Positions 39,765 through 60,228 of a stretch of 64,000 nt of DNA are shown one piece after another (the stretch's first letter is position 1; every line of letters starts with the position of its first letter). The stretch is from Chromatiales bacterium (ex Bugula neritina AB1) (lineage in GTDB: Bacteria > Pseudomonadota > Gammaproteobacteria > Granulosicoccales > Granulosicoccaceae), in contig MDLA01000142.1 in assembly GCA_001730015.1 (NCBI GenBank), positions 1 through 64,000 of the forward strand, written 5' to 3'. Position numbers and translations under genes: made by a program. Under the pieces are notes generated by a model. The model did no database searches. It saw nothing but the letters and a program-made list of their open reading frames with translations, and had not been told where the DNA came from.

Positions 39765-39848
39765 ACTCAGGTAACTACTCAGGTAACTACTTAGGCAATT
39801 ACTCTGGTTGTTATTCAAGCTAGTATTCCAGATATTATTCCGGTGCTT
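39765..39848. repeat. Seven degenerate 12-bp tandem repeats
   Basis: Units from 39765: ACTCAGGTAACT (twice exactly), ACTTAGGCAATT, ACTCTGGTTGTT, ATTCAAGCTAGT, ATTCCAGATATT and ATTCCGGTGCTT, each 12 bp. The last two overlap the stop region of the mxaD-like gene and the rest lie in the leader of the propeller gene. In the mxaD frame each unit carries a stop codon. Confidence 0.8.
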
Positions 39849-40392: not shown

Positions 40393-40488
40393 AAGTTTTC
40401 CAGATATATTGATTTGTTGTAGAGCTTCCCGCACTCTCAAACTTAAAATAACAGAGGTTCGAGTCGTGTTGCAATTGAATAATCCGGC

Positions 40489-41624: not shown

Positions 41625-41626
41625 GG

Positions 41627-42599: not shown

Positions 42600-43457
42600 A
42601 TGTTTCGTAGAGTTTTATCTTCGTGGGAATCGGAGCCCGCGTATAGAGGGTGCCGCTGGGTCGCTATTTTTCTTCTGGTGCTGGCGGGTGGTGGTTTTGC
42701 TCACGCTGCAGATTCCAGATCCGCAGAGGGAGATCGCTGGGAAATACTTCGCGCACAGCTCTTTGAAGACAGAGTGGTAAACGAGGGTGAAGCCATAATT
42801 AGAGTAACGGCTCCCGGTCGTGCCTTTGATGCGGCAAGAGTGCCTGTAACAGTGCATGCGACCCGGTCTTTGCCTGAAGATCGCTATATCCACAAGCTCT
42901 ACATTGTCGTCGACAACAATCCTCTGCCTGTCGCGGGAACGTTTACTTTTGAGCCGAATAATGGCTGGGATACTGTGAACACGGAGCTCAGAATCAACGA
43001 ATACTCCCACCTGCGCGTTATTGCCGAACTGGACGACGGAACTTTGCATATGACGAAATCATTTGTTAAAGCGGTTGGCGGATGTTCGGCACCGCCGAGT
43101 AGCTACGATAGATCAGATGCAACCCTGTTGGGCAGTTTCAAGGGCGGGATCAATGAATTCCTAAATCCTGCAGCGCCGGCAGTCGCAACAGTCAGGGTAG
43201 TACATCCTAACGCCAGTGGTATGCAATTTGATCAATATACGCGTACTTACATCCAGCCGCATTACATACATACGATGGGTGCGGAATTTAACGGGCGTAC
43301 GTTATTTACGCTGGAAACGAATTTTTCTCTTAGTCAGGATCCGGTGCTTGGGTTTAACTTCAGTCCGGAAGAGGATGGTCAGCTGACAATCTACGCGCTA
43401 GATTCCAAAGACAGCCGATTCGAGCAATCGTGGGATTTGAAATCGAGTAATTTATAA
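42600..43457 (+). CDS. SoxYZ-like carrier protein, quinoprotein-associated (copy 1)
   Basis: 285 residues: signal sequence (VAIFLLVLAGGGFAHAADS), a SoxY-like domain ending with GGCSAPPS and carrier Cys162, then a SoxZ-like domain with VRVVHPNASGMQFDQYTRTY and NFSLSQDPVLGFNFSPEEDG. Fused SoxYZ-like carriers (TIGR04557-like) occur with PQQ alcohol dehydrogenases. In sulfur oxidisers SoxYZ carries intermediates on the terminal Cys; here the cargo is unknown. The ATG at 42600 follows a clear AT-rich leader. A paralogue starts 51 bp downstream. Confidence 0.85.
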   Translation: MFRRVLSSWESEPAYRGCRWVAIFLLVLAGGGFAHAADSRSAEGDRWEILRAQLFEDRVVNEGEAIIRVTAPGRAFDAARVPVTVHATRSLPEDRYIHKLYIVVDNNPLPVAGTFTFEPNNGWDTVNTELRINEYSHLRVIAELDDGTLHMTKSFVKAVGGCSAPPSSYDRSDATLLGSFKGGINEFLNPAAPAVATVRVVHPNASGMQFDQYTRTYIQPHYIHTMGAEFNGRTLFTLETNFSLSQDPVLGFNFSPEEDGQLTIYALDSKDSRFEQSWDLKSSNL

Positions 43458-43508
43458 AATTGAACCACTTATAGCAATTCTGACTGCTATACCAACCGCG
43501 AAACATAC

Positions 43509-44333
43509 TTGATGAAAACACTACCGTCAAACCCTTTGAAGGCAACAGCGGCTCTGTTAGGGAGCTTTTTACTGTTAATTTCAATGTTATCGCTACCTGC
43601 CGGCGCTGCTGAGGATCCACGCTGGACACAATTGCGCACGTCGTATTTTGGTGACCGTGAGATCACCAGCGGTGACACTATTATCACGATGGAAGCACCG
43701 AAACGCGCGCACGATGCAGCGACTGTACCTATTGTGTTGGAAGTCTTTGATACCTCAGTAAAAATCAAACAGGTGCATCTATTCGTTGATCAGAATCCGT
43801 TACCACTGGCGGGCATATTTAAGTTTCGTGATGAAGCAGATGGCTGGCACTCGTTTGAAACCCGAATCAGAATTAATGAATACACGAATGTGCGCGCTGT
43901 TGCCGAGCTTGAAAACGGTGACTTGCACATGACTGAACGATTCGTGAAAGCCGCTGGCGGGTGCTCGGCACCATCAATGGCAGACATGGATGCTGCAATG
44001 GCACGTGCGGGAAAAATGAAAATACTGCTCGATGAAATAAACGATGAGGGTCTGGCGAGCGCATCGGCGGTGATTAAAATCAGTCACCCCAACAATTCTG
44101 GCATGCAGTTCGACCAGATATCGAGGAACTACATACCCGCATTTTTTGTACACACTATTGTGGCTGAGCTCGATGGCAAGCCACTGCTTGATATAGAAAC
44201 GAATTTTTCACTCAGTGAAAACCCTGTTATCCGGTTGAACTTTTCACCGGAAACTACTCAGAAAAATCTACTGGTGTACGCGGTTGACTCCAAAGGCAAC
44301 CGGTATCAAAAGGCCCTTCACGAGCCAAATTGA
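43509..44333 (+). CDS. SoxYZ-like carrier protein, quinoprotein-associated (copy 2)
   Basis: 274 residues with the same architecture as copy 1: signal LLGSFLLLISMLSLPAGAAED, SoxY-like domain ending GGCSAPSMADMD (Cys151), and SoxZ-like VIKISHPNNSGMQFDQISRN and NFSLSENPVIRLNFSPETTQ. Shared segments such as GWxSFETRIRINEYTN and ELENGDLHMTERFVKAAGGC show a tandem duplication. The two copies differ in the loop after the Cys and in the N-terminus. They may carry different groups or form a heterodimer. Confidence 0.85.
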   Translation: MMKTLPSNPLKATAALLGSFLLLISMLSLPAGAAEDPRWTQLRTSYFGDREITSGDTIITMEAPKRAHDAATVPIVLEVFDTSVKIKQVHLFVDQNPLPLAGIFKFRDEADGWHSFETRIRINEYTNVRAVAELENGDLHMTERFVKAAGGCSAPSMADMDAAMARAGKMKILLDEINDEGLASASAVIKISHPNNSGMQFDQISRNYIPAFFVHTIVAELDGKPLLDIETNFSLSENPVIRLNFSPETTQKNLLVYAVDSKGNRYQKALHEPN

Positions 44334-44365
44334 GGAACTTTTGCTCTTTATTTATGCTTGCTTCT

Positions 44366-44725
44366 TCAAAAGCAGAGCAGAGTGGATTCGGCCTGGTATT
44401 TCTGCAGAGTCTTGACGCGCTCTTTTGCCCAGTGTGAGTCACGGAAAAAGATACCGCGTTGTCCTCGATCAAGTTGAACCTGCATGATAGTCTGGGCTTC
44501 CTCAAATTCTGCATAGCTCATCTTTGACTTGATAAAATCAACGCTGCATGAGCACTGATGCAGCGATTCCACTGAATTCCCGTTTGCCGCCATGCAGCCA
44601 AGTACGTAGTCTGCGATAGCTACCGTGGGAAAATCGTCCGTTTTGCAGTCGCACGAGTCTGTGGCCATTGCATAGGTGGTGAAAGTCAGAAAGACCGCTG
44701 ATAAAATAATTTTGATTCGAAGCAT
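44366..44725 (-). CDS. Small cysteine-rich secreted protein of unknown function
   Basis: 119 residues: signal MLRIKIILSAVFLTFTTYAMA followed by TDSCDCKTDDFPTVAIADYV, GCMAANGNS, HQCSCSVDFI and a helical C-terminal part ending STLLCF. Six or so cysteines suggest disulfides or a metal site. Not recognised. It is convergent with the SoxYZ-like genes and 34 bp after the next gene upstream on the same strand. Confidence 0.6.
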   Translation of the reverse strand: MLRIKIILSAVFLTFTTYAMATDSCDCKTDDFPTVAIADYVLGCMAANGNSVESLHQCSCSVDFIKSKMSYAEFEEAQTIMQVQLDRGQRGIFFRDSHWAKERVKTLQKYQAESTLLCF

Positions 44726-44759
44726 TAGTTAATTTACCTGGGAAAGTTATAGAGTCTGG

Positions 44760-45491
44760 CTATGTGCCTGGTGCATTCAGCTTAATATCGTGTCTAAAGT
44801 AGAATATGCCGTCATTCCGCGAATCGACAGAAATCCCGACCACATCGCCTGGTACCTCTTCACTGAGGTTGATCGATATTTTTGCATGCCGGTACTCAGG
44901 ACGTTCTGCCAGATAGGTGTCTTGAATAAACGGCGAGAACGCCAGGAGCGTTGCTTTTATCTGTTTGTCATTCCACGTGATCTCTTCGTCAGTTACCTGT
45001 ACTGCTTCAGCCGCCAGTGCGTCCCGTATACGGTTTCGAAAGTACAGAACACCACCGCCAGTCTCCCGGCCGATTTTCTGAGCGACATGTTCCATCATCG
45101 CAATAATCACCGGGTTGCCGCGAAACTGCTTGAAGTCGGGAAAAGCCATTTTATGCTCGCCCGTTAGAAAATCCAGTACAACATCCCGTTTATCATCAGC
45201 GTGCACCTGGTTAATCCGAAGGAGAACCTCGTCAATTTTTTCCGGTTCTGCCTGAGATTTGCTGGAATACCGGTAAACCAGATTCTCGCCTTGTTCGGTA
45301 TTGGCAAGATGAGACCTATCGTAAATAAGTTTCTGAGCGAGGGTCAGTTCTGTAAACGCGTGGGAAGTCACAGGCAACGCAGCAAACGTAATCAGTGTCA
45401 CTGCGAATGCTGTTGCAACAGACGGTGATTTGCAGCTAAACAATTCGCGTATCCGGCTGAGCAGAGCGGTACCGGCATTATAGACGGGCAT
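44760..45491 (-). CDS. Secreted protein of unknown function in the quinoprotein island
   Basis: 243 residues: signal-like segment VATAFAVTLITFAALPVTSHAF, then FTELTLAQKLIYDRSHLANT, QGENLVYRYSSKSQAEPEKI, KMAFPDFKQFRGNPVIIAMMEH, GGGVLYFRNRIRDAL and PGDVVGISVDSRN. The blocks look well structured but no family is recognised. The ATG at 45491 is 153 bp from the divergent metallohydrolase gene. Coexpression with the downstream small Cys-rich protein is likely. Confidence 0.6.
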   Translation of the reverse strand: MPVYNAGTALLSRIRELFSCKSPSVATAFAVTLITFAALPVTSHAFTELTLAQKLIYDRSHLANTEQGENLVYRYSSKSQAEPEKIDEVLLRINQVHADDKRDVVLDFLTGEHKMAFPDFKQFRGNPVIIAMMEHVAQKIGRETGGGVLYFRNRIRDALAAEAVQVTDEEITWNDKQIKATLLAFSPFIQDTYLAERPEYRHAKISINLSEEVPGDVVGISVDSRNDGIFYFRHDIKLNAPGT

Positions 45492-45644
45492 AGGTTTTAC
45501 TCGGTGAAGGTGTCAAACATCGTTCTGATACTGTATTGGTGGGCGTAAGATTAAGTCAAGTGATCCGTTCCCGGTTGTTATTATCGGAACCTTCATCCGG
45601 TGTGTTAATTCTATCTGACGTTTACAGTATGAGGAGAATATCAA

Positions 45645-46577
45645 GTGAAACAACGATTCCGTCGATGTAGCTTGTGTCTAGCCTCGATCGTTTTGTCGTG
45701 GCTATTTACGGATGTAGTATTTGCAAAAGATCTGCAGCTTGAGTTCCAGGAAATCAGTGCCGGAATTTACGTGCATTTCGGCAGGCAGGAAACCATGACT
45801 GTAGAAAACTATGGTGATATCGCTAACATAGGGTTTATTGTCGGGGAGAAATCTATAGCAGTCATTGACCCGGGTGGCAGCCCGGCTATCGGCACCCTGA
45901 TGCGAAAAAACATCGAATCAATCAGTCCGTTACCGATATCTCACGTGATACTAACGCACTTTCATCCGGACCATGTGTTTGGCGGATCTGCCTTTACAGA
46001 TGTACCGGTCGTTGTAGCGCACCGGAATTACACTCGAGCATCAACACAGCGGGCGCAGTTTTACCGTGAAGCATTTAGCGAACTATTTATCAGGTCCGGG
46101 CAAATCACCACCCTGATTCCCACAGATGATCAATTTGACACAATGCGAATTGAGCTTGGCGGGCGGACGATCGAGGTGCGACAGCACGAGACAGGACACA
46201 CTGATAACGACCTCAGTGTCTGGGATGTCGGCACAGCTACGCTCTGGGCGTCGGATCTGCTATTTGTTGAACGGCTGCCGTCTCTCGATGGCAGCGTGGC
46301 GGGTTGGATAGCCAGTATGAATAAATTAGCGGGTTTGTCAGCAAAGACAGTGATACCTGGGCACGGTGTACACGGTAGCTGGGATCAACTAGCCGCGCCC
46401 CAATTTCGTTATTTAAACAAGCTGCTTGCGCAGACACGGGCCGCAGTGGCTGATAACCGAAGATTATCTGATGCAGTAAATACAGTCGCTGCTGATGAGT
46501 CTGAACACTGGCTGTTATTTGAGAGCAGGCATCCGGGTAACGTCACCAAGGCATTTACAGAACTGGAATGGGAGTAA
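45645..46577 (+). CDS. SoxH-like zinc metallohydrolase, quinoprotein relay type
   Basis: 310 residues: signal LCLASIVLSWLFTDVVFAKD and a metallo-beta-lactamase fold with HFHPDHVFGG (near 105-114; metal-binding HxHxDH), TGHTDNDLSVWD and VIPGHGVHGSW. This is the pattern of the quinoprotein relay zinc metallohydrolases (TIGR04558/04559-like), related to SoxH. A thioester- or glutathione-like hydrolase step in alcohol oxidation is plausible but unproven. It is transcribed toward xoxF, 494 bp away. Confidence 0.85.
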   Translation: MKQRFRRCSLCLASIVLSWLFTDVVFAKDLQLEFQEISAGIYVHFGRQETMTVENYGDIANIGFIVGEKSIAVIDPGGSPAIGTLMRKNIESISPLPISHVILTHFHPDHVFGGSAFTDVPVVVAHRNYTRASTQRAQFYREAFSELFIRSGQITTLIPTDDQFDTMRIELGGRTIEVRQHETGHTDNDLSVWDVGTATLWASDLLFVERLPSLDGSVAGWIASMNKLAGLSAKTVIPGHGVHGSWDQLAAPQFRYLNKLLAQTRAAVADNRRLSDAVNTVAADESEHWLLFESRHPGNVTKAFTELEWE

Positions 46578-47071
46578 TTTATATCTGTTTGAGGTCAATT
46601 TGCAGGTTGTTACATAACTTAACGGTATGCTATTGTCGGTTAGCGGGTTTGTAGCCAGTAGCGATTGCATTTGCAAATCGCGGCAAATGCATTTTTGCAA
46701 ACGGCGCAAAGGGGGAAATTTCGGTCAGATTCAATAAGGTAAGCATCAATTTTCTGAGCTATCGGCCAACCGCTGATAGTTATTTTAAAGCGACTACGCA
46801 GCCTTACTCTGGGCGCACTGCGTGAGCTTCCTTGTCGGTGGACCCTATATCCTTAAAATGTCATTCCATAGTTCTACATTTATTCGTGTTCTAATCAAAT
46901 TCAAAACCTGCGTTGTTACACCCTGCATTGCCACTCCGAATTCCTGGCTGCCCGGCAGTCTGCTTTAATCGGAAATTGGAATTAAATCGGGTTGGAACAA
47001 CGTGTTACAGAATGGTTGAACAGATGGTGTACATTGGCTCTGACACAAGACAATTGAACGGAGATTAATAA
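46578..47071. other. Intergenic region upstream of xoxF
   Basis: 494 bp with no gene. It holds the inverted repeat at 46667-46690, and a good ribosome binding site (CGGAG, about 47057) ahead of the xoxF start. The promoter was not pinpointed. Confidence 0.5.
46667..46690. promoter_or_regulatory. Inverted repeat upstream of xoxF
   Basis: GCATTTGC (46667-46674) and GCAAATGC (46683-46690) flank an 8-nt spacer; ATTTGCAAAT and AAATGCATTT within and beside it are themselves palindromes. A short run of T (ATTTTT) follows. It may be an operator for xoxF or a weak terminator of the metallohydrolase gene (90 bp downstream of its stop). Confidence 0.45.
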
Positions 47072-48880
47072 ATGAGACTTCGCAATACCTCGGGCTATGT
47101 TGCAGCCGTACTAGCGGCATCAACACTGGTCTGGTCGGGCGTACAGGCAAACGATGAGGTCACCGAACTGGCCGCCAATCCAGCCAACTGGGTGATGCCG
47201 ACAGGCGATTATGCAAATACTCGCTACAGTAAACTCAGTGAGATAAACTCAGATAATGTAGGCGATTTGAATGTCGCCTGGACCTTTTCCACCGGTGTTT
47301 TACGCGGTCATGAGGGGGGGCCGCTGATTATCGGCGATACCATGTATTTACATACACCTTTCCCAAATCGCGTCTACTCGATGGATCTCAATGAGGAAGG
47401 CCGAATTCTCTGGATGTATGAGCCTAAGCAGGATCCATCAGTCATTCCTGTTATGTGCTGTGACACAGTAAACCGTGGCCTTTCGTATGCAGATGGAAAG
47501 ATATTTCTGTATCAGGCTGACGCAACACTGGTAGCACTTGATGAGTCGAACGGCGAAGTTGTCTGGTCTACGTCAAACGGTGATGCGGGTAAAGGCGAAA
47601 CCGGTACCTCCGCGCCAATGGTATTCAAAGACAAAGTCATTGTCGGTATCTCCGGTGGTGAATTTGGTGTTCAGGGCCACCTGACCGCGTACAACATCGC
47701 TGATGGTTCAATGGCATGGCGTGGTTATTCCACCGGTCCTGATGATCAGACACTCATGGATCCGGAAGCGACCACCCATCTCGGTCAGCCTGTTGGAAAA
47801 GATTCAGGTACAGCTACCTGGGAAGGCGATCAGTGGAAAATTGGCGGCGGTACTACCTGGGGCTGGTACTCGTATGATCCCGAGCTAAACCTTGTTTACT
47901 ATGGTACGGGTAACCCCAGTACCTGGAACCCGGTTCAGCGTCCAGGTGATAATCGCTGGTCAATGACTATTTTCGCTCGTGATGTGGATACCGGGATGGC
48001 CAAATGGGTTTACCAGATGACCCCACACGATGAGTGGGATTATGATGGTATAAATGAAATGATTCTGGTAGACCAGGAAATTGATGGGGCCATGCGCAAG
48101 ACTCTGGTTCACTTTGACCGCAATGGTTTCGGTTACACGCTGGATCGAGAAAGTGGTGAGCTGTTAGTTGCCGAAAAGTTTGATCCCGCAGTTAACTGGG
48201 CGACTCACGTTGATATGAAAACCGGTCGGCCACAGGTGGTTGCAGAGTACAGTACGCACCAGAATGGTGAAGACGTAAACTCAACTAACATTTGCCCTGC
48301 GGCACTGGGCTCTAAAGATCAGCAGCCAGCAGCTTATTCTCCTGACACGAAGCTGTTCTATGTCCCAACTAATCACGTGTGCATGGACTACGAGCCCTTT
48401 GAAGTAGAGTACACATCAGGGCAGCCCTATGTTGGTGCAACATTGTCTATGTTCCCGGCTGGAAGAGTCACTGAAGATGGTACAGATAATCTGGGTAACT
48501 TCATTGCGTGGGATGCGACCAAAGGTGAAATCAAATGGTCAAACTCTGAAGCATTTTCTGTTTGGAGCGGAGCGCTCGCGACAGCAGGAAATGTAGTGTT
48601 CTATGGTACACTCGAAGGTTATCTTAAAGCCGTCAACGCTGAAACCGGTGAAGAGCTGTATCGCTTTAAGACACCATCAGGCATCATCGGCAACGTAACT
48701 ACCTGGGAGCATGGTGGTAAGCAATACGTTGGCGTACTTTCCGGTCTTGGTGGCTGGGCAGGTATTGGTTTTGCTGCCGGTCTCACCAATGATACAGATG
48801 GTCTGGGTGCGGTTGGTGCTTACAAGTCCTTGTCAAGCTATACCTCACTGGGTGGGGTACTGACAGTATTCTCACTTTGA
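47072..48880 (+). CDS. xoxF: PQQ-dependent methanol/alcohol dehydrogenase, lanthanide-type (XoxF-like)
   Basis: 602 residues with a signal peptide ([16 protein letters not shown]). It has the vicinal disulfide Cys129-Cys130 (VMCCDTV), metal ligands Glu197 (GGEFGV) and Asn281 (GNPSTWNP), and the catalytic motif [12 protein letters not shown] with Asp323 plus Asp325. The second Asp, two residues after the catalytic Asp, is the mark of lanthanide-dependent XoxF enzymes; calcium-type MxaF has Ala there. It oxidises methanol (possibly other primary alcohols) in the periplasm. The family identity is clear; the metal preference is inferred from the sequence. Confidence 0.95.
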
Positions 48881-48924
48881 TTTGTGAGTTACCTGAGTAC
48901 ATTTAAGTAAAAAGAAGTTAAAGT

Positions 48925-48948
48925 AACCGGGCGGGAATCCGCCCGGTT
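48925..48948 (+). terminator. Strong hairpin between xoxF and the cytochrome gene
   Basis: A perfect 10-bp stem, AACCGGGCGG (48925-48934) with CCGCCCGGTT (48939-48948), around loop GAAT. No T run follows, so it is more likely a partial attenuator or mRNA-stabilising hairpin protecting xoxF mRNA than a full terminator. Confidence 0.65.
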
Positions 48949-49016
48949 CACTTGTTCCGCTGCGGTTCAGTAGTAAAATAATAACCTATAGTTATAAAAT
49001 AAGAGAATTTGCCTAG

Positions 49017-49457
49017 ATGACCAAAGCCCGATTTATACCCTCAGTTCTGGTTGCCATGGTGTTCGGCGCAAGCCTTGCAGGTGCGTCGAATGTGGCAGCG
49101 TCAGATGCACCGAAATATGTCGTTGAAGGTGGCAAGGTAGATAAAGCCACATTTAATGGTTATCGCCGCTTTCACGGTACTTGCCATGCCTGTCACGGGC
49201 AGGATGCAATGGGCGGTAGTTTTGCGCCATCGCTTGTAGAGTCCCTGAAAACACTGGACTACGATACTTTTACCAAAACAGTTCTGGAAGGACGGCAGGC
49301 TCAAGGCTCTGGTGGTTCGGTTAGTGCCATGCCAGCGTTCTCTAATGACCCCAACGTCACCAAGCATCTCGATGATATTTACCGTTATCTACTGGCTCGA
49401 GCAGACGGTGAGCTTGGGACCGGACGCCCGAAAAAATTGCCGAAACCGAAAAAGTAA
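49017..49457 (+). CDS. xoxG: Periplasmic cytochrome c, XoxG-like
   Basis: 146 residues: signal VLVAMVFGASLAGASNVAAS, one heme site CHACH (56-60) in GTCHACHGQDAMGGSFAPS and Met ligand around 105 (SAMPAFS). It is a class I cytochrome suited to take electrons from the dehydrogenase. Its position 137 bp after xoxF behind a strong hairpin is the usual xoxFG arrangement. The C-terminal RPKKLPKPKK is basic and may aid docking. Confidence 0.85.
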   Translation: MTKARFIPSVLVAMVFGASLAGASNVAASDAPKYVVEGGKVDKATFNGYRRFHGTCHACHGQDAMGGSFAPSLVESLKTLDYDTFTKTVLEGRQAQGSGGSVSAMPAFSNDPNVTKHLDDIYRYLLARADGELGTGRPKKLPKPKK

Positions 49458-49504
49458 TAGTTGGCAATAAAGATCGGGAACCTGACAGAAAATACGTCAA
49501 ACAG

Positions 49505-50341
49505 ATGATAATAAACACAACGGCAATTAAGTGCGGCATTGTTGCAAGTTGTGTGTTTGCTTCCGGCGTCCTCTATGCGGCCGGGTTTAGCGGTCGACAG
49601 GCGCTGACAACGTCAGTGCTTAAGGTGTGTGCTGACCCCGGCAACCTGCCATTCTCGAACGATAAACTCGAGGGATTTGAAAATCGCATAGTCAGTTTGC
49701 TTGCTGAGCGTATGCAGCTGGAAGTTCGCTATACCTGGTTTCCGCAAACGGTAGGGTTTGTCCGGAACACACTTCGCCTGCGAGAGTGTGATCTGATATC
49801 CGGTATAACTACGACCAGCGAACGGGTACAGAATACCAACCCCTATTACCGCTCCGTCTACACCATGGTGTATCGCAAAGACTCCGGAATTACCGCGAGC
49901 AGCATGGATGACCCGGCGTTGAAAACCCTGAAGCTGGGGGTAGTCGCAGGTACTCCGCCGGCAACAGTCATAGCCCGGCTGGGGTTGCTAGGCCATGTTA
50001 AACCTTATCATCTGGTTGCCGACACTCGGCGCTACAGCCCGGCCCGTCAGGCCATTGCTGATGTCGGATCCGGGGTCACTGATGTCGCGTTCATCTGGGG
50101 GCCTATCGCAGCGCATTTTGCCGGGCTGTCAGAAGAGGAACTGACGCTGGTACCGCTAGTTAATGAAGATAAATCGGTGCGTCTGGATTTCCGCGTTTCG
50201 ATGGCAGTACGCTACAACGAAACAGACTGGAAGCATCAGGTTAACGCTGTGCTGAAAGAGCTTCAACCACAGATAAATTCTATTCTGCATGAGTTCAGTG
50301 TACCGTTGCTTTCAGATCGCGGGCAACTGATTTCGAAATAG
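49505..50341 (+). CDS. xoxJ: XoxJ/MxaJ-like periplasmic binding protein
   Basis: 278 residues: signal GIVASCVFASGVLYAAG, then solute-binding fold with LKVCADPGNLPFSNDKLEGF, YTWFPQTVGFVRNTL, LKLGVVAGTPPATV and DVAFIWGPIAAHF. This matches the quinoprotein dehydrogenase-associated ABC-binding protein group (TIGR03871-like, XoxJ/MxaJ). XoxJ is thought to help assemble or activate XoxF. It is 47 bp after the cytochrome gene and 1 bp before the next gene. Confidence 0.85.
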   Translation: MIINTTAIKCGIVASCVFASGVLYAAGFSGRQALTTSVLKVCADPGNLPFSNDKLEGFENRIVSLLAERMQLEVRYTWFPQTVGFVRNTLRLRECDLISGITTTSERVQNTNPYYRSVYTMVYRKDSGITASSMDDPALKTLKLGVVAGTPPATVIARLGLLGHVKPYHLVADTRRYSPARQAIADVGSGVTDVAFIWGPIAAHFAGLSEEELTLVPLVNEDKSVRLDFRVSMAVRYNETDWKHQVNAVLKELQPQINSILHEFSVPLLSDRGQLISK

Positions 50342-50342
50342 C

Positions 50343-50954
50343 ATGGGCACGTCGGGTCTCTCCAATCAATCACTGCGGCTCAAGTACCGGTTGAATATTC
50401 TTCTTGTACTTGTTTTTCTAGTCATCTCCTCACGGGTGCATACGGAAGTGTTGCAGCCGGAGGGTTACCGTATGGAACACTACGACGATCTGGTACCGCT
50501 GGGGCTTGATGGTGCAAAAACTATTACCGCAGCTGAGCTGAAGGAGCTCCAGCAAATCAGTGATGTTGTGGTGGTCGATGTTATTCCAGAGCATCGAAGG
50601 CCCGACTTTCTCCCGGAGAATCAGATCTGGATTCCCGTTGCTCATAAAGGTGTGCCGGGCGCTATATGGTTACCGGATACCGGGTTTGGCGTATTATCTG
50701 AAATAACTGAAACCTATTTCAAAAATCATCTGAAGCGGGCAACCAACGGTGACAAAACCCGAGCTCTTGTATTTTATTGCCGGTCAGATTGCTGGATGTC
50801 CTGGAACGCAGCTAAACGTGCGTTAACTTATGGCTATTCGGATGTATACTGGTTTTTTGATGGAATCGATGACTGGTTTTTTGAAGGTTTCGACTTCGCT
50901 GTACTAACGCCTGCCGAAGGACAGAGGCAGGCCGGAGACAAAGCCGATCAATGA
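50343..50954 (+). CDS. PQQ-linked CxxxCW-motif protein (rhodanese-like)
   Basis: 203 residues: hydrophobic signal (LNILLVLVFLVISSRVHTEVL), then a rhodanese-like fold with VVVDVIPEHRRPDFLPEN and the motif FYCRSDCWMSWNAAKRA. The Cys-3-Cys-Trp and WMSWNAAKRA are the signature of the PQQ-dependent catabolism CXXCW family (TIGR03865-like). Probable periplasmic protein of unknown redox or sulfur-transfer role. It follows xoxJ immediately and is probably coupled to it. Confidence 0.85.
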   Translation: MGTSGLSNQSLRLKYRLNILLVLVFLVISSRVHTEVLQPEGYRMEHYDDLVPLGLDGAKTITAAELKELQQISDVVVVDVIPEHRRPDFLPENQIWIPVAHKGVPGAIWLPDTGFGVLSEITETYFKNHLKRATNGDKTRALVFYCRSDCWMSWNAAKRALTYGYSDVYWFFDGIDDWFFEGFDFAVLTPAEGQRQAGDKADQ

Positions 50955-51001
50955 TGTCGTATTCTGATAATCCATTTTTATTCGCACATAGAGAACTACC
51001 G

Positions 51002-51448
51002 ATGAAACAACTACCGGCCAAGAGACGATCGATCACTGTTAAGCTAGTGATTTTTTGCGCCCTGATGACAGGGTGGGTGAATTTGCATGCTGCTGCCGGA
51101 CTCTTAACCGGGGGAGCCAAAGCCCTGGCGCCGCTTAAATTATCGGTGATGGAGCCACTGGCCTCAAAACCCTATGATCTTGAGTCCGGAAAATATTATA
51201 AAATCGATATCATTTGCGACGGCTCAAGTGAGCTGGCTCTATCCGGTGCAGAGTTTTTTAGAAATATCTGGGTGGATGAGATTATTATCAATGATATAGA
51301 AATCCGACCGCTGGGTATGCATAGCCTTGAATTTGACGACGAAGGAACGGCGACTATCAAATTTATCGCAATACGCCCGGGTACATTCAGCCTGCGCATT
51401 CCGGGATCCTCCGGTGAGTCACAGCAGGCAATTTTTAATATCCGCTAG
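51002..51448 (+). CDS. Small secreted protein of unknown function
   Basis: 148 residues from ATG 51002 (MKQLPAKRRSITVKLVIFCALM), giving a normal signal; an ATG at 50951 overlapping the previous stop would add 17 residues. The mature part has LKLSVMEPLASKPYDLESGK, YYKIDIICDGSSELALSGAE, FFRNIWVDEIIINDIEIRP and ATIKFIAIRPGTFSLRIPGS, strand-rich like a cupredoxin-like or Ig-like fold. Not recognised. Gaps of 47 and 6 bp place it in the xox operon. Confidence 0.6.
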   Translation: MKQLPAKRRSITVKLVIFCALMTGWVNLHAAAGLLTGGAKALAPLKLSVMEPLASKPYDLESGKYYKIDIICDGSSELALSGAEFFRNIWVDEIIINDIEIRPLGMHSLEFDDEGTATIKFIAIRPGTFSLRIPGSSGESQQAIFNIR

Positions 51449-51454
51449 TTTGCC

Positions 51455-52669
51455 GTGACTGGAATAAAAACAATCAGGAGGTCAGGTTTTCTTTCCCGGG
51501 CATGCACTTTCGTATTGCTGTTGCTTACAGGAACAGCAATTGCAGCAGATGCACTTGAAATAGAAATAACCTACCTCGGGCGGGCCGGGGAGCCAATTAT
51601 TCCGCTGTCTCTACTGGATATGCCGGTTGAAGACAATGGCATTCCCGGAAGTGTGCTGGGCTTGAAAGACAGCCAGACAACCGGCAATTTTTTAAATCAT
51701 ATTTATAAGCTCGATCATGTCATCCTTGAACCGGAAGAAAACCTTGCAGAGCGTTTTAAAAAGCTGACAAACAACGGCGCAAAGCTTTTCATCGCTGATC
51801 TGGGGGCCGCTGATCTGCAGAGTTTGAAAAATCTAAGTGCTGATGCGCTTATACTGAACGTCCAGTCTATGGACGATTCACTTCGAAATCAGAATTGTGA
51901 TGCCCGGGTGTTGCATCTTCCACCGAGCCGGGCAATGGTCGCTGATGCGCTGGCGCAGTATCTGGCGTGGAAGCGCTGGAGAGAAGTAGTGCTGGTTACC
52001 GGCCGGCATGCACAAGACAAGCTATACGCAAATTCTTTGCATCGGGCTATAGAGCGCTATGGGTTGAAGCTGGTTCAGGAAAAAAACTGGACAGCAGAAC
52101 CGGGTGCCCGCCGTACCGATTCCGGTCATCACACGCTTCAGCAGGAGGTGCCGGTTTTCACTCGCTTCAAAGAACACGATGTCGTATTGGTTGCTGATGA
52201 GCGCGATGAATTCGGCGAGTACCTGACCTACCGTTCTACCTCACCCAGACCGGTCGCCGGCACTCAGGGCTTAATACCCACTGCCTGGCATCGAACCCAG
52301 GAACAGTGGGGGGCAACACAAATACAGCGTCGCTTTACCAAACTGGCTGGACGCACCATGACTGAACGTGACTATGCAGCGTGGCTGGCTATGCGTGCAT
52401 TCAGTGATGCGGTAACGAATACATCCAGCGCAGACCCCTCAGTCGTCAGAGAATTTCTTCTTTCCGACAAACTAAAGCTTGCCGGATTCAAAGGTGCACC
52501 ACTCAGCTTCAGGCAGTGGAACGGACAGCTTCGACAACCGGTTTTACTGGCCGGGCCTAGAATGCTGGTGTCTGTATCGCCTCAGAAGGGCTTTTTACAC
52601 GAAGTATCGGAGCTTGATACCCTCGGGTACGACAAGCCGGAGTCCGCTTGCACAGACTTTCAGGAATGA
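51455..52669 (+). CDS. ABC-type periplasmic binding protein, PQQ-alcohol dehydrogenase type
   Basis: 404 residues: signal TFVLLLLTGTAIAADALEIE, then a branched-chain amino-acid-binding-like fold with LEIEITYLGRAGEPIIPL, SDALILNVQSMDD-like and WHRTQEQWGATQIQRRFTKL plus TMTERDYAAWLAMRAFSDAV, as in the TIGR03863-type proteins of PQQ-dehydrogenase loci. Starts at GTG 51455, 6 bp after the previous stop. Transport is unlikely here because no ABC permease or ATPase is encoded nearby. Confidence 0.8.
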   Translation: MTGIKTIRRSGFLSRACTFVLLLLTGTAIAADALEIEITYLGRAGEPIIPLSLLDMPVEDNGIPGSVLGLKDSQTTGNFLNHIYKLDHVILEPEENLAERFKKLTNNGAKLFIADLGAADLQSLKNLSADALILNVQSMDDSLRNQNCDARVLHLPPSRAMVADALAQYLAWKRWREVVLVTGRHAQDKLYANSLHRAIERYGLKLVQEKNWTAEPGARRTDSGHHTLQQEVPVFTRFKEHDVVLVADERDEFGEYLTYRSTSPRPVAGTQGLIPTAWHRTQEQWGATQIQRRFTKLAGRTMTERDYAAWLAMRAFSDAVTNTSSADPSVVREFLLSDKLKLAGFKGAPLSFRQWNGQLRQPVLLAGPRMLVSVSPQKGFLHEVSELDTLGYDKPESACTDFQE

Positions 52670-53691
52670 GCCACATGTACAAAGATAACTTGCAACAGAA
52701 CAAATCCATAGCCGGTGGCCGGTTGTCGAAATACACTTTGACAGGAATTGCCGTACTGTTGTGTTGTATCAGCCAGGTATCACATGGGTATAGCTTGTAT
52801 GTATCAAATGAAAAAGACAACACCATATCAGTAATCGATGGTAATTCGCTCGATGTAATAGATACCATTAGCGTAGGTCAGAGGCCCCGTGGAATCGTAT
52901 TGAGTGCCGATAACAATTTTCTTTATATGTGCACCAGTGATGACGACCACATAGAAGTGCTCGATCTGCAAACAAGAAAAGTAGTGCATACCTTGCCATC
53001 AGGACCGGATCCCGAATTAATGGCGCTGGACGCGGCAGGGCGGCTGTATATAGCCAATGAAGACGACAACATGGTAACTGTGGTCGATGTTGAAAATCGG
53101 CGCAAGCTGGAAGAGATCCCGGTGGGAATCGAGCCAGAGGGAATTGGTTTGAGCCCGGATGGTAAATGGCTTGCCAGCACATCTGAAACCACAAACATGA
53201 CTCATTTCATCAATACCGAAACGCTGAAGATCGAAGCCAATGTACTGGTCGATTCGCGTCCGAGAGTCGCACAGTTTACCGCAGACGGGAAAGAGGTATG
53301 GGTATCTTCAGAGATTGGCGGTACGGTCTCAATCATCGATACCGACACACATACGATAAAGCATAAAATCGAGTTTGATATACGCGGATTGCGAAAAGAG
53401 TCCATCCAGCCGGTTGGTGTAAAAATCGCTACCGATGGCACCGACAAAGTCTACGTGGCCCTGGGTCCGTCGGCCAGAGTAGCGGTGATCAATGCCAGGA
53501 CTTACGAGGTCGAGAAATATCTGTTAGTCGGTCCGCGGGTCTGGAATCTTGAATTTTCCCCTGACCAGACACGGTTGTATACAACAAACGGCGTCAGCGG
53601 AGATGTATCGGTGATTGATCTTAAAAAACAGCGGGTAATTAAATCAGTCAAGGTAGGGAGGTTGCCGTGGGGTATCGTCGCCCGACCCTGA
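52666..53691 (+). CDS. PQQ-dehydrogenase-associated secreted beta-propeller protein
   Basis: About 341 residues from ATG 52666, overlapping the previous stop (ATGA); an ATG at 52675 and a TTG at 52648 are alternatives. Signal/anchor LTGIAVLLCCISQVSHGYS, then YVTN-type blades: NTISVIDGNSLDVIDTISVG, SDDDHIEVLDLQTRKVV, NMVTVVDVENRRKLEEIPVG and SGDVSVIDLKKQRVIKSVKV. The family (TIGR03866-like) travels with PQQ alcohol dehydrogenase genes. The second propeller in the window (38705-39688) is only distantly similar. Confidence 0.85.
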   Translation: MSHMYKDNLQQNKSIAGGRLSKYTLTGIAVLLCCISQVSHGYSLYVSNEKDNTISVIDGNSLDVIDTISVGQRPRGIVLSADNNFLYMCTSDDDHIEVLDLQTRKVVHTLPSGPDPELMALDAAGRLYIANEDDNMVTVVDVENRRKLEEIPVGIEPEGIGLSPDGKWLASTSETTNMTHFINTETLKIEANVLVDSRPRVAQFTADGKEVWVSSEIGGTVSIIDTDTHTIKHKIEFDIRGLRKESIQPVGVKIATDGTDKVYVALGPSARVAVINARTYEVEKYLLVGPRVWNLEFSPDQTRLYTTNGVSGDVSVIDLKKQRVIKSVKVGRLPWGIVARP

Positions 53692-53781
53692 GAACATTGA
53701 ATTATACAGCTATGCTTGACGCAACCCCGTTTGATGTGGCTTATTAAATGTTTCAGCCGGAATAAATCAGGAATGGGCGCT

Positions 53782-54393
53782 ATGCGACAACTATCTATTG
53801 TTCTGCTGCTGTTCTTCAGCTCTCAGGCTGCCGCTCAGGCAACCGACCCGGAATGGCCTTGTATACAAGTATTGGTGCCTGAGATTGTGACCGCTGTAAT
53901 GTGGCCAGAGATAATTCCTGATGAACAGCTGGAGCTATGGAAGAGCGACCCTGAGCTTTCAGATTTAGTTGAGGAGCTGGCCAGTGTTGACGAGTTTACC
54001 GAAGAAGAGCAGCGGCGTATCGAGCAGTTTGCTGAGTCAATTCCCGAGTCGGCCCGGCTGGCGACACTCAATACTGTTGCCCAGGGTATTGTCACCACAG
54101 CTAATAAACGGCGGGATAAATATATTCGTGGGATCAAGCGGTATACACGCCAGCAGATAGCGATTGCAAATCAGATAGAAGCAACACTGAATGATCTTGC
54201 AGTACTGGATAACAACAATGCGCAGACAGACAAAAGCGAGACCGAACGTGCACAAATTGAAGAAACGCTGAACTGGCACCAGCGAGTGTATGATCAGCGG
54301 GAACATGCGATCACAGCCTTGTGTGACGTACCGGTTGAGCTAGAAATAAATTTAAGTTCAGTGGTGCGCGAACTTGCTCAATACCTTCCATAG
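53782..54393 (+). CDS. Secreted helical protein of unknown function
   Basis: About 203 residues from ATG 53782, which has AGGA at good spacing; earlier starts (53773 or TTG 53716) extend it by 3-22 residues. Signal QLSIVLLLFFSSQAAAQA, then acidic, helical sequence: PCIQVLVPEIVTAVMWPEII, LSDLVEELASVDEFTEEEQR, RQQIAIANQIEATLNDLAVL. Two Cys (PCIQ, ALCDVP) could pair. Not recognised. It follows the propeller by 90 bp and overlaps the hydrolase start by 20 bp, so it belongs to the xox operon. Confidence 0.65.
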   Translation: MRQLSIVLLLFFSSQAAAQATDPEWPCIQVLVPEIVTAVMWPEIIPDEQLELWKSDPELSDLVEELASVDEFTEEEQRRIEQFAESIPESARLATLNTVAQGIVTTANKRRDKYIRGIKRYTRQQIAIANQIEATLNDLAVLDNNNAQTDKSETERAQIEETLNWHQRVYDQREHAITALCDVPVELEINLSSVVRELAQYLP

Positions 54394-55366
54394 GAAACGC
54401 TCCCTTACAGTCATTGGAGGCAGCCAGAACAGCACCAGCTTCAGGGTCCTGTTTCTGCTCTTGCTCATCACCTTATCGCCAACTTGTGTGAATGCCGCCG
54501 ATACGGAATCTTTTGATTTCGGTTTTTTCAAAGACCGGCCGGGTCAATTGGTAGAACTTGAAAACCATCGCCTGCACGCCGACTGCCGCGGAAAGGGCCT
54601 GACCACTGTTTTGTTTGAGGCAGGGCTTGGTGGCAGTGCGCTGGAATGGGTTCCAATCAGGGATCAAATTGCCGGGAGAACGCGTGTTTGTATTTATGAT
54701 AGAGCGGGGTACGCGTGGAGCGATCCGTCGCCGTACCCAAGATACGCCCGGCAACTTGCCGCGGAAGCAAGTGCGATGCTGCATAAGCTGGGGCTTACCC
54801 AGTCGCTGATTCTGGTCGGGCATTCCTTTGGCGGCCTGGTTGTGCGTGAATTGGCCGGGTTGCCGGGTATTCAGGTTAAGGCAATGGTACTGATAGACTC
54901 ATCTCACGAAGATCAGTTCAAACACATGCGAGTTGAAGGCGGTAAGGCAATCGTGCCCACGGGGGAGCATTTTGTGTTTTCCCCGGGGGATGCCCCGGAA
55001 AATCTACCGCAGCAACTCAGGCGCAAGATTAAGGCTCTGTCGCGTATGCGAAAAACCTATGCAGCAACCCACGCAGAAATGGCGAAGTTTACTGATTCAG
55101 CAGATCAGGTGGCCAGCACTCGCTCGGTCGTGGAGTATCCGGTAACGGTTGTCAGCCGCGGGCTTGATCTATACCCTGTTGCTGCGACCGGTTTAGATAG
55201 AAATACAATTTGGCAGCAGTTGCAGTCAGATCTGGTGTCGTTGAGTAGTGATGGTCGTTTTGTTTTGGCACAGAACAGCGGGCATCATGTTCACGTCGAT
55301 GATCCGGCACTGATCGTTCGTATCATAGAGGAACTACTCGATGAAATTGACCAGCAACCGCACTAG
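54374..55366 (+). CDS. Secreted alpha/beta hydrolase
   Basis: 330 residues from TTG 54374, inside the previous gene's end. Signal VLFLLLLITLSPTCVNAAD, then hydrolase sequence: TVLFEAGLGGSALEWVPIRD, RVCIYDRAGYAWSDPSPYP, nucleophile elbow GHSFGG (Ser151) and QNSGHHVHVDDP (likely catalytic His). The YDRAGYGWS pattern resembles lipase/esterase-type proteins. The substrate is not evident; an ester or lactone formed from alcohol-oxidation products is one speculation. It overlaps soxC by 26 bp. Confidence 0.75.
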   Translation: MLNTFHRKRSLTVIGGSQNSTSFRVLFLLLLITLSPTCVNAADTESFDFGFFKDRPGQLVELENHRLHADCRGKGLTTVLFEAGLGGSALEWVPIRDQIAGRTRVCIYDRAGYAWSDPSPYPRYARQLAAEASAMLHKLGLTQSLILVGHSFGGLVVRELAGLPGIQVKAMVLIDSSHEDQFKHMRVEGGKAIVPTGEHFVFSPGDAPENLPQQLRRKIKALSRMRKTYAATHAEMAKFTDSADQVASTRSVVEYPVTVVSRGLDLYPVAATGLDRNTIWQQLQSDLVSLSSDGRFVLAQNSGHHVHVDDPALIVRIIEELLDEIDQQPH

Positions 55367-56678
55367 AGAGAACAGCGCCAATACTGAAGGGCGGAGCATC
55401 CATCCGGCAACCGATGAAGCGGCAGAAAGTAGCAACGTGCCAGTAGAATCTGCCGCTGATGATCGAAGGCACTTTATTAAGCGTGCTGCAAGGCTGGCTA
55501 CACTGGGAACAACCGTCGCAGCAGCACCTTTGGCGCGCGGTAATACTATCCCTGATAGCTGGCAGACGCCGGGTGCCGATTTCAGTAACTACGGTCAGCC
55601 TCGCAGTGCGATTGACAGCCCGATCCGCTGGGTGTCTGCTGATCGCTCGGTCCCCGGCGACGGAGTATCGTGGACACCGCTGCATGCGCTGGAAGGCACA
55701 ATCACTCCCAACGGTTTGCATTTTGAACGTCACCATAACGGGGTTCCGTTTGTTGATCCGGCAAGATGGCAACTCACCATACACGGTAAGGTTGACCGCG
55801 CACTGGCATTTAGTCTGGATACCCTGCATCGCTATCCAATGGTATCGCGAACAACATTTATAGAGTGTGGTGGCAACAGTAATTCACTGTGGCACCCGAA
55901 TCCATCGCAGGCACCTTCAGGCTATGTCCATGGTTTAGTGTCCTGTAGTGAGTGGACAGGTGTGCCGCTGTCTATTCTGCTGGATGAAGCCGGAATAGAC
56001 ATCAAAGCCGGCTGGTTAATTGCCGATGGTTATGATGCCTCCGGTGTTGCTGTCAGTCTTCCGATGAAAAAAATACTAGACGATACCCTGATCGCACTGT
56101 ATCAGAACGGTGAACCCGTGCGGCCGGAAAACGGTTACCCTGCCAGATTGCTGGTTCCTGGCTGGGAAGGTATTGTAAATATTAAATGGCTTCGGTCATT
56201 GCGGGTAAGTGATAAACCGCTGATGTCCCGATTCGACACCGTAAGCTATACCGACCTGCAAAAAGACGGCAGCTTTGAACGCTTCAGTTTTGAGATGGGA
56301 ATTAAGTCATTAATCACATCACCCACAGCTGGCGATAAATTGTCTCAACGCGGCTTCCACCAGATAAGCGGGCTGGCATGGACTGGCAACGGCAAGGTAT
56401 CGCGGGTAGAGGTCAGTGTAGACAATGGTGCCTCATGGACCGATGCACAGTTGCAGCAACCGGTACTGGACAAATCGCTAACGCGGTTCCGGCTACCCTG
56501 GAGCTGGGATGGCTCGCCGGTGAAATTGAAAAGCCGAGCATATGATTCCAGCGGTCAGTCGCAACCGGATAGAGACTCCCTGCTGACCGAGCGAGGAACC
56601 AATATGTATTACCACTATAATGCGGTGGTTATATTTTCTATAAATTCCGATGGCCTGGTACGACATGCGTATTCATAG
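55341..56678 (+). CDS. soxC: SoxC-like sulfite dehydrogenase molybdopterin subunit
   Basis: 445 residues: a Tat signal (DDRRHFIKRAARLATLG, 41-57), then the sulfite-oxidase fold with FIECGGNSNSLWHP (Mo-ligand Cys176) and RPENGYPARLLVPGWEGIVN, and a C-terminal Mo-co dimerisation domain (KVSRVEVSVDNGASWTDAQL). SoxC with SoxD forms a periplasmic enzyme acting on carrier-bound sulfur in thiosulfate oxidation. In this island no classical soxXAB are seen. The start overlaps the hydrolase end (26 bp), with GAGG just upstream. A SoxD-like gene overlaps its 3' end by 29 bp. Confidence 0.9.
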   Translation: MKLTSNRTRENSANTEGRSIHPATDEAAESSNVPVESAADDRRHFIKRAARLATLGTTVAAAPLARGNTIPDSWQTPGADFSNYGQPRSAIDSPIRWVSADRSVPGDGVSWTPLHALEGTITPNGLHFERHHNGVPFVDPARWQLTIHGKVDRALAFSLDTLHRYPMVSRTTFIECGGNSNSLWHPNPSQAPSGYVHGLVSCSEWTGVPLSILLDEAGIDIKAGWLIADGYDASGVAVSLPMKKILDDTLIALYQNGEPVRPENGYPARLLVPGWEGIVNIKWLRSLRVSDKPLMSRFDTVSYTDLQKDGSFERFSFEMGIKSLITSPTAGDKLSQRGFHQISGLAWTGNGKVSRVEVSVDNGASWTDAQLQQPVLDKSLTRFRLPWSWDGSPVKLKSRAYDSSGQSQPDRDSLLTERGTNMYYHYNAVVIFSINSDGLVRHAYS

Positions 56679-57219
56679 CGCTGTGCTGGCGCTGCCACTT
56701 ATTTTCGGCATTATAAGCGCCGCAGTGTTTGCCGCTGGTGAACCGGACAATCCACGGCCGGCACTCGGGATTGAACTCAGAGACACAGCGGTGGCAGAAC
56801 TGCCACCGGCGATTTTCGCCGATGGCACCGGCCTGCCGGAAGGGGAGGGTAATTCGGCACTCGGTGAAGAAGTGTTTGACCAGGAGTGTTCAATTTGCCA
56901 CGGACGCGAAGGAATAGGTGGCGCTGCCATGGAGCTGATCGGCGATCGATCGTTGCTGGCCACTGAGTATCCAGATAAAGGTATCGCGGTGTACTGGCCG
57001 TATGCACCGCCATTGTTTGATTACATTCGTCGCGCCATGCCACCGTCATCACCCTATTCCCTGAGTAACGAAGAAATCTATGCGGTTATCGCATACCTGC
57101 TGGAACGCAGTGATTTGCTCGAGGCGGGCGCCTATCTTGATGCCACCCGTCTTTCATCCATTGTAATGCCTAACCGAAACAATTTTATCAATATCTATAG
57201 TGATAAAGCAGGGGAATGA
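56650..57219 (+). CDS. soxD: SoxD-like cytochrome c subunit
   Basis: 189 residues: signal VLALPLIFGIISAAVFAAG, then a class I cytochrome domain with heme site CSICH (80-84) in CSICHGREGIGGAAMEL and a downstream Met ligand (RRAMPPSSP). Much shorter than full SoxD (about 380 residues, two hemes), so only one heme is present here. It overlaps soxC by 29 bp, so the pair should be cotranslated. Downstream is a MITE-like element. Confidence 0.8.
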   Translation: MAWYDMRIHSAVLALPLIFGIISAAVFAAGEPDNPRPALGIELRDTAVAELPPAIFADGTGLPEGEGNSALGEEVFDQECSICHGREGIGGAAMELIGDRSLLATEYPDKGIAVYWPYAPPLFDYIRRAMPPSSPYSLSNEEIYAVIAYLLERSDLLEAGAYLDATRLSSIVMPNRNNFINIYSDKAGE

Positions 57220-58624: not shown

Positions 58625-58649
58625 AGGGTATACCTCAGGACTATAGCGT

Positions 58650-60211: not shown

Positions 60212-60228
60212 CTAGTGGTCCACCCCCA

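Follow-up and report, generated by a model that had tools for sequence, protein, structure and literature searches.

A SoxC-family molybdoenzyme at the end of a XoxF operon and its association with fused SoxYZ carriers

Results

A separate SoxC lineage in a XoxF operon

In Chromatiales bacterium (ex Bugula neritina AB1) (Granulosicoccales; Granulosicoccaceae), a SoxC-family molybdoenzyme and a one-heme cytochrome c are encoded at the end of a gene run that starts with the pyrroloquinoline quinone (PQQ) methanol dehydrogenase gene xoxF, and the molybdoenzyme is probably a component of the relay formed by fused SoxYZ carriers and a SoxH-like hydrolase encoded in the same block. The block occupies positions 42600-57219 of the stretch analyzed here, referred to as the window (64,000 nt; positions 1-64,000 of the forward strand of contig MDLA01000142.1, assembly GCA_001730015.1). 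The assembly is a metagenome-assembled genome (MAG) of 7.4 Mb, 98.6% complete with 5.1% contamination; starts of the open reading frames (ORFs) in the window were assigned mechanically. The initial annotation had described the block as a Sox-like sulfur relay embedded in a methanol oxidation operon.

The molybdoenzyme (55341-56678, + strand) scored 502.1 bits on TIGR04555 (cut-off 420) and is therefore a SoxC family member; its N-terminus is twin-arginine-like. The cytochrome gene (56650-57219, + strand) overlaps soxC by 29 bp, and its product contains one CXXCH motif. For both proteins 2xts is the best structure, chain A for SoxC (317.7 bits) and the cytochrome chain B for the partner (78.2 bits). 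The assignment of SoxC and a one-heme partner to the alcohol dehydrogenase block was thus correct. The active-site motif ECGGNSN is present in the window protein and in 79 of 80 loci, L106 having ECGGNSS, and we use the name SoxC2 for this group. These loci are the best 80 of 572 confirmed matches from a contig scan with two peptide patterns, so that context shares among them are not unbiased. Among them, the closest named relative of the window SoxC is from a Granulosicoccaceae MAG (L095, 77%).

Sox-type SoxC proteins carry ECAAN-GMEW or a motif near it, and a third type carries ECSGN. Among the 11 sox-type rows, seven (L013, L027, L030-L033, L037) lie within 5 kb of a SoxY match on their contig, and four (L034, L035, L036, L038) were assigned by motif alone. 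After removal of duplicate genes, identical rows and rows shorter than 250 aa, 110 of 128 rows were kept for a quick tree with only SH-aLRT (approximate likelihood-ratio) support. In this tree the 11 sox-type and six third-type rows formed one group with a support of 99 and zero ECGGNSN rows; the deeper branching order lacks resolution and the outgroup branches are long. Judged from its sequence, the window SoxC is outside the sox-operon SoxC group. Another contig of the genome, C136, encodes a third-type SoxC (ECSGNG) with a one-heme partner (L014:3329-5336), close to benzoate-CoA-ligase-type and aromatic-degradation-like genes.

The residue five positions after the active-site Cys was Arg in 9/9 sulfite-oxidase-type rows, Gly in 10 and Ala in one of the 11 sox-type proteins, and Asn181 in the window protein. 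In sulfite-oxidase-type enzymes this Arg has a sulfite-binding role. Its absence from SoxC2, as from sox-type SoxC, supports a place for SoxC2 in the relay.

Partner cytochromes were found for 97 of 99 SoxC2 loci, all 97 with one heme (90/90 without repeats), L101 and L138 having no partner in reach. Nineteen of the loci were fetched from the class sample described below, seven of them being genes already among the best 80. In addition, G399 and G301 have SoxC genes that are alike over the last 250 residues. Third-type partners had one heme in 8/8 cases, and sox-type partners two hemes in 10 of 11, including all seven seen near SoxY, with L038 as the exception. The idea that a single heme is unique to the window was therefore rejected. 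The title of Bardischewsky 2005 indicates that the second heme domain of Paracoccus pantotrophus SoxCD is dispensable and that the enzyme works with one heme.

The fused carriers and SoxH

Two fused SoxYZ-like carriers with a GGC motif had been reported, and both were found as described. Carrier a (42600-43457, + strand) and carrier b (43509-44333, + strand) scored 225.4 and 239.5 bits on TIGR04557 (cut-off 140), and each matched Pfam SoxY and SoxZ and contained an internal GGCSAP arm. On the true SoxY model they reached 55.5 and 65.5 bits, against a cut-off of 125. The arm cysteines are Cys162 in carrier a and Cys151 in carrier b, as previously numbered; the latter is numbered from the ATG that follows the listed TTG start by one codon and is the sole Cys of the protein. 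The closest matches to carrier a (G007, G012, G013, G019) stood at 54-81%. A third fused SoxYZ lies on the short contig C16 of the same genome (L015:2962-3798, − strand).

The SoxH-like zinc metallohydrolase of quinoprotein relay type 2 (45645-46577, + strand), which the initial annotation had also recognized, scored 319.7 bits on TIGR04559 (cut-off 280) and contains HFHPDH. Between carrier b and SoxH, on the opposite strand, lies the gene of a conserved protein with no Pfam or NCBIfam match (44760-45491, − strand), of which relatives of 40-57% occupy the equivalent position in L077, L078, L080, L084 and L089.

Co-occurrence of SoxC2 with the carrier

The distribution of these genes was followed in a tool-drawn class sample of 369 genomes. 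SoxC2 was called at 580 bits or more to A1, followed by a motif check of all 21 cases; a G278 protein (540 bits, ECSGNSR) was tallied as other SoxC and G255 (206 bits) was excluded from both SoxC groups. A fused SoxYZ was counted at 170 bits or more and with no internal stop, 56 genomes exceeding the fused-carrier family cut-off, some only via SoxY-SoxZ read-through of a stop. SoxB was tallied at E ≤ 1e-120 (149 genomes, 148 above cut-off) and PQQ alcohol dehydrogenase at E ≤ 1e-100 (63 genomes, 60 above cut-off).

SoxC2 was present in 21 of the 369 genomes, from 13 families, and all 21 have the motif and the partner. Every one of them also encodes a fused SoxYZ (21/21), which was found in 3 of 30 genomes with another SoxC and in 16 of 318 with neither. 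For SoxB the corresponding numbers were 3/21, 27/30 and 119/318, and for PQQ alcohol dehydrogenase 20/21, 5/30 and 38/318; one of the 20 (G043) is below the curated cut-off for the dehydrogenase. Fisher tests of SoxC2 versus other SoxC, uncorrected for kinship, gave p values of 1.8e-11 (fused SoxYZ), 4.8e-8 (SoxB) and 1.3e-8 (PQQ alcohol dehydrogenase). The 63 genomes with a PQQ alcohol dehydrogenase divide into 20 with SoxC2 and carrier, none with SoxC2 alone, 19 with the carrier alone and 24 with neither. Conversely, 39 of the 40 genomes with a fused SoxYZ have a PQQ alcohol dehydrogenase match.

The pattern was also seen within families. In f92, G176 and G297 have SoxC2 and the carrier and G397, from the genus of G176, has neither and encodes SoxB and another SoxC; in f3, SoxC2 and the carrier are both present in G244 and both absent from G037 and G446.

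Genome-wide searches for SoxYZ, SoxB and SoxH were made in a set chosen by SoxC2, the genomes of 50 of the 80 loci, which shares at least five genomes (the same genes) with the class sample. Fused SoxYZ above cut-off was found in 48/50, TIGR04559 SoxH in 48/50 and SoxB in 18/50. The same two genomes, G066 (1.0 Mb) and G085, lack both fused SoxYZ and SoxH. G085 (2.9 Mb, the genome of L131) has SoxC2 together with SoxB and unfused SoxY and SoxZ, and no fused carrier or PQQ-type SoxH; it could be a true exception, or the MAG could be incomplete. SoxC2 was also found in Methylotuvimicrobium buryatense 5G and Methylophaga thiooxydans DMS010. Taken together, coupling of SoxC2 to the carrier system is well supported, and the data support the assignment of SoxC and its partner to the fused carrier rather than the thiosulfate pathway.

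The host genome does have a thiosulfate-type locus. Contig C125 encodes SoxX, SoxY, SoxZ, SoxA, SoxB, SoxC and a two-heme SoxD, which makes the system in the window a second, distinct one. The MAG has 5.1% contamination, but in five congeneric genomes (G001, G003, G007, G010, G013) SoxC and SoxY matches likewise lie no more than 5 kb apart. The reported absence of soxXAB holds for the block, where Pfam and NCBIfam scans of the proteins of 42600-57219 gave neither SoxXA nor SoxB, but not for the genome. With a separate soxXYZABCD locus, and with SoxC2 tracking the fused carrier and not SoxB, we rejected the possibility that the window SoxCD is part of the thiosulfate Sox pathway.

Organization and conservation of the operon

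The run from xoxF to the cytochrome is contiguous, with gaps of at most 136 bp and overlaps of 20-29 bp at the last three junctions, and co-transcription of soxC and the cytochrome gene with xoxF is therefore very probable. The single operon originally proposed holds for this run but not for the carriers and SoxH, which are units apart from it and are themselves separated by the opposite-strand gene. A promoter and terminator scan found 21 promoter-like sites (19.3 expected) and 20 terminator-like sites (14.3 expected).

The gene order through to SoxC and the cytochrome recurs, with XoxF on the same contig, in G013, G001, G012 and record L097, so that the arrangement in the window is not due to chance. 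L101 shares the order and its contig stops just past soxC, in G008 and L096 the shared order extends back to XoxJ, and L098 comprises only the 225-aa gene (see below), the hydrolase, SoxC and the cytochrome before the contig ends. In G007 the two halves of the cluster are on separate contigs, so that linkage is not seen there. Two ABC transporter genes (TIGR03864, TIGR03861) in G012 and two ORFs in G008 lie between the propeller and the 225-aa gene, where the window has none. The SoxC2 proteins of the XoxF operon, 10 rows including the window, form one Granulosicoccaceae-centered clade (support 100), consistent with SoxC having entered the operon once. In G035 the XoxF cluster is the same but lacks SoxC, and the rest of that genome gave no SoxC2 match, so SoxC is a removable module. 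This cluster contains the 225-aa protein and the alpha/beta hydrolase, and the idea of a 225-aa protein confined to SoxC2-containing clusters was rejected.

Outside the XoxF clade, 12 of the best 80 loci have a fused SoxYZ in the 7 kb around SoxC2, the distance being at most 3 kb in these 12; in 10 of them the carrier lies 0.7-1.4 kb upstream; L114 has a partial copy at the contig end. The arm Cys is retained, as GGC or GAC, in all full-length linked carriers that were aligned. An apparent Cys loss in L182 and L187, which lack GGC, was discarded since both read GACSAP and the Cys is kept.

The remaining genes of the run, all on the + strand, are mostly those of a PQQ system. By its motif and nearest structures, the product of 47072-48880 is a lanthanide-type XoxF: the nearest solved chains are the lanthanide XoxF enzymes 6oc5 (977 bits) and 6dam (972.9 bits), TIGR03075 gave 763.3 bits, and the protein carries adjacent Cys-Cys and a DYD motif, which we take to be the Asp-x-Asp of lanthanide enzymes with an Asp two residues past the catalytic Asp. 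It is followed by a XoxG-like one-heme cytochrome c (49017-49457; TIGR03874 116.1 bits, under the cut-off of 161.75) and a XoxJ-like periplasmic binding protein (49505-50341; TIGR03871 277.4 bits). Unlike in the window, no XoxG-like ORF of at least 80 aa is present between XoxF and XoxJ in G012 (L077:8795-9019) and G007 (L084:3362-3666). Next come a rhodanese-domain PQQ_CXXCW protein (50343-50954; TIGR03865 183.8 bits, Pfam Rhodanese, CRSDCW), an operon-conserved 165-aa protein with a signal-like N-terminus and no family match (50951-51448; 54-68% in seven relatives), a PQQ-system substrate-binding protein (51455-52669; TIGR03863 467.7 bits) and a PQQ-associated beta-propeller (52648-53691; TIGR03866 486.5 bits). 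A 225-aa protein with a signal-like N-terminus and no family match (53716-54393; 39-70% in five relatives) and an alpha/beta hydrolase, also with a signal-like N-terminus (54374-55366; Pfam Abhydrolase_6), precede SoxC.

Adjoining the XoxF block, 57692-62986 (− strand) contains genes for VWA, TPR, VWA, unassigned, DUF58 and AAA-type (MoxR-like) proteins, the NCBIfam matches of the last being weak. The set presumably resembles mxaRSACKL, with the unassigned protein in the MxaA position, these names being given by analogy; its relatives adjoin the cluster in G013 and G035. On the other side, three conserved genes (40489-42367, − strand) are divergent from SoxYZ, one MotA/ExbB-like and two with no Pfam or NCBIfam match. 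They are preceded by a Polyketide_cyc2 protein (39835-40440, − strand), which we take to be MxaD-like by analogy and whose relatives lie between VWA genes and SoxYZ in L200 and L201, and by a second TIGR03866-like beta-propeller (38705-39688, − strand; 246.9 bits, under the cut-off of 287.3).

Discussion

In Paracoccus, the chemistry assigned to SoxC is the oxidation of carrier-bound sulfane. The reading that we favor, at about even odds, is that SoxC2 and its cytochrome are the oxidizing arm of the SoxYZ/SoxH relay in a sulfur-clearing cycle. We infer the chemistry and purpose of such a cycle, in which SoxC2 would act on the fused carrier, the rhodanese would load it and SoxH would release the product. 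The arm Cys of the fused SoxYZ would first take up sulfane sulfur from the periplasm, a loading reaction in which the rhodanese-domain CXXCW protein may stand in for SoxXA. SoxC2 would then oxidize the carrier-bound sulfur and pass electrons via its cytochrome to a pool of soluble cytochromes shared with XoxF, and SoxH, replacing SoxB, would hydrolyze the oxidized group off the carrier. The likely gain would be the removal of nucleophilic sulfur that would otherwise attack PQQ, plus electrons. PMC12997753 mentions shielding of PQQ from sulfur nucleophiles, alternatively to disulfide or cofactor maturation, and SoxC2 provides the oxidizing step that a sulfur guard needs. PMC11237559 cites SoxH as compensating for the missing SoxB in Sulfurimonas CVO and deems this role improbable where SoxB is present.

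Several observations weigh against this proposal. Nineteen of the 40 fused-carrier genomes of the class sample lack SoxC2, all 19 with a PQQ dehydrogenase, showing that the core of the relay also occurs on its own. The co-occurrence is phylogenetically non-independent (21 genomes in 13 families), and for 61 of the 83 SoxC2 rows of the tree the flanking 7 kb contain no full-length carrier gene. The rhodanese is only a candidate loader, and according to passages of PMC5336275, P. pantotrophus needed all three Sox enzymes, including SoxAX, despite persulfurated SoxYZ. No biochemistry on any SoxC2 was found in the open-licence literature. Finally, the carrier stands beside methanol dehydrogenase maturation-type genes, with SoxH and MoxR/DUF58/VWA-type genes in L200 and without SoxH in L201, which favors a maturation role of the carrier.

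SoxC2 and its cytochrome could instead be a plain sulfite dehydrogenase clearing free sulfite, which may also attack PQQ, with the fused SoxYZ not being a substrate. SoxC is within the sulfite oxidase family, passages of PMC5336275 describe SoxCD as able to oxidize sulfite, TIGR04555 itself bears the name sulfite dehydrogenase, and most SoxC2 rows (61 of 83) have no carrier gene nearby. However, the window protein has Asn in place of the Arg shared by all nine sulfite-oxidase-type rows, the scores of this protein on the SorA and SorT models were 144.1 (cut-off 600) and 128.5 bits (cut-off 570), and the co-occurrence of SoxC2 with the carrier was complete; we consider a free-sulfite enzyme unlikely.

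The initial annotation had favored a sulfur- or thiol-bound intermediate linked to alcohol oxidation, where the carrier would hold a C1-sulfur species (methanethiol or formaldehyde adducts) that SoxC2 and SoxH oxidize and release. The tie of a Sox-like module to alcohol oxidation stands, in that the Sox-like parts go with the quinoprotein (a PQQ alcohol dehydrogenase match in all but one of the fused-SoxYZ genomes) and SoxC and its partner with the fused carrier. The bound intermediate fares less well, given the sulfane chemistry of Paracoccus SoxC and the fused-carrier genomes without SoxC2. SoxH does show a weak match to the hydroxyacylglutathione hydrolase family TIGR03413 (30.7 bits, cut-off 200.8), and certain Sox proteins were more abundant in Methylophaga on dimethyl sulfide, as stated in a portion of PMC6548844. 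On the other side, no adduct-forming enzyme was seen, the SoxC chemistry assigned elsewhere acts on sulfur, and in P. putida disruption of the carrier and hydrolase had a minimal effect on short-chain alcohols, without rare earths (PMC12997753). A C1-sulfur intermediate therefore seems improbable, and a sulfur-clearing role fits the data better.

We give similarly little credence to a function of the carrier and SoxH in maturing the PQQ dehydrogenase (disulfide formation, PQQ or metal insertion) with SoxC2 repairing or recycling the carrier. The maturation-type neighbors in L200, the comparable MoxR/DUF58/VWA-type set downstream in the window and the role in disulfide formation or cofactor stabilization proposed in PMC12997753 speak for it, but maturation does not in itself require a SoxC-family molybdenum enzyme, and SoxC2 is missing from nearly half of the fused-carrier genomes (19/40). 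That SoxC2 and the carrier merely share methylotroph hosts, without a functional link, is very improbable: 36 of the best 80 loci have names starting with Methyl-, which makes a shared host range plausible, but among PQQ alcohol dehydrogenase genomes SoxC2 is confined to those with the fused carrier (20 versus 0), the two genes are neighbors in two arrangements, and the label "carrier next to SoxC2" switches at least six times on well-supported branches of the tree.

A broader version of the sulfur-clearing cycle is tentative and, to us, doubtful: a second, SoxXAB-independent Sox-like cycle for C1 oxidation in methylotrophs, of which the "truncated Sox" of methanotrophs would be an instance and not a thiosulfate remnant. 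Here the carrier would covalently hold sulfur or a C1-sulfur species that arises in the vicinity of the PQQ methanol dehydrogenase, SoxC2 and the one-heme cytochrome would oxidize it in place, SoxH would free it, and the same cytochrome pool would be fed.

Fused SoxYZ and SoxH beside quinoproteins have already been described (PMC11237559, PMC12997753, and passages of PMC11582611), and NCBIfam family names mark both as "quinoprotein relay". With this relay (TIGR04557/TIGR04559; ped/xox clusters; SoxYZ-S2/S4 of PMC11237559) the window shares the fused SoxYZ and the SoxH adjoining the PQQ dehydrogenase, as well as the PQQ_CXXCW, XoxJ-like, substrate-binding and propeller proteins, parts that are over curated cut-offs; the window adds SoxC2 and the one-heme cytochrome, with which the xoxF operon ends. 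With the thiosulfate system of P. pantotrophus it has in common the SoxY and SoxZ families, the arm Cys, the SoxC family and a 2xts_B-related cytochrome, whereas the block is devoid of SoxXA and SoxB, the SoxC is of a different lineage, the partner is a one-heme protein and not a two-heme SoxD, and the carriers are fused with an internal GGCSAP arm instead of a separate SoxY ending in GGCGG and a separate SoxZ. The available parts of PMC8527097 and PMC6548844 describe a "truncated Sox" of SoxYZ and SoxCD without SoxA and SoxB in Methylococcus and Methylophaga, respectively; in Methylococcus, where SoxBAX is absent, the role was called "not clear", and in Methylophaga, without SoxAB, it was tentative. 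In contrast to these, the genes of the window lineage are inside a xoxF operon, and the host also has a full sox locus. For Methylobacter, a portion of PMC12810054 ties SoxCD to one SoxB cluster; 18 of our 50 SoxC2 genomes do have SoxB. The Sox/Xox tetrathionate pathway of Advenella (Pyne 2018), which we liken from its title and one citing sentence, likewise has Sox and Xox homologs acting together. A description of a SoxC lineage tied to the relay was not found in the open-licence literature, which mostly leaves aside subscription papers and is weak evidence of absence. The pairing of the SoxC2 lineage with the relay is new here, the neighborhood of carrier, SoxH and PQQ dehydrogenase being already known from NCBIfam and from papers of 2024-2026.

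The co-occurrence of SoxC2 with the fused carrier points to a possible function of the "truncated Sox" genes that have lacked an explanation in methanotrophs. It also turns an open annotation problem into a testable one, namely what sits on the carrier Cys and whether SoxC2 oxidizes it. If the proposed cycle is true, rare-earth methanol oxidation would be linked to sulfur stress.

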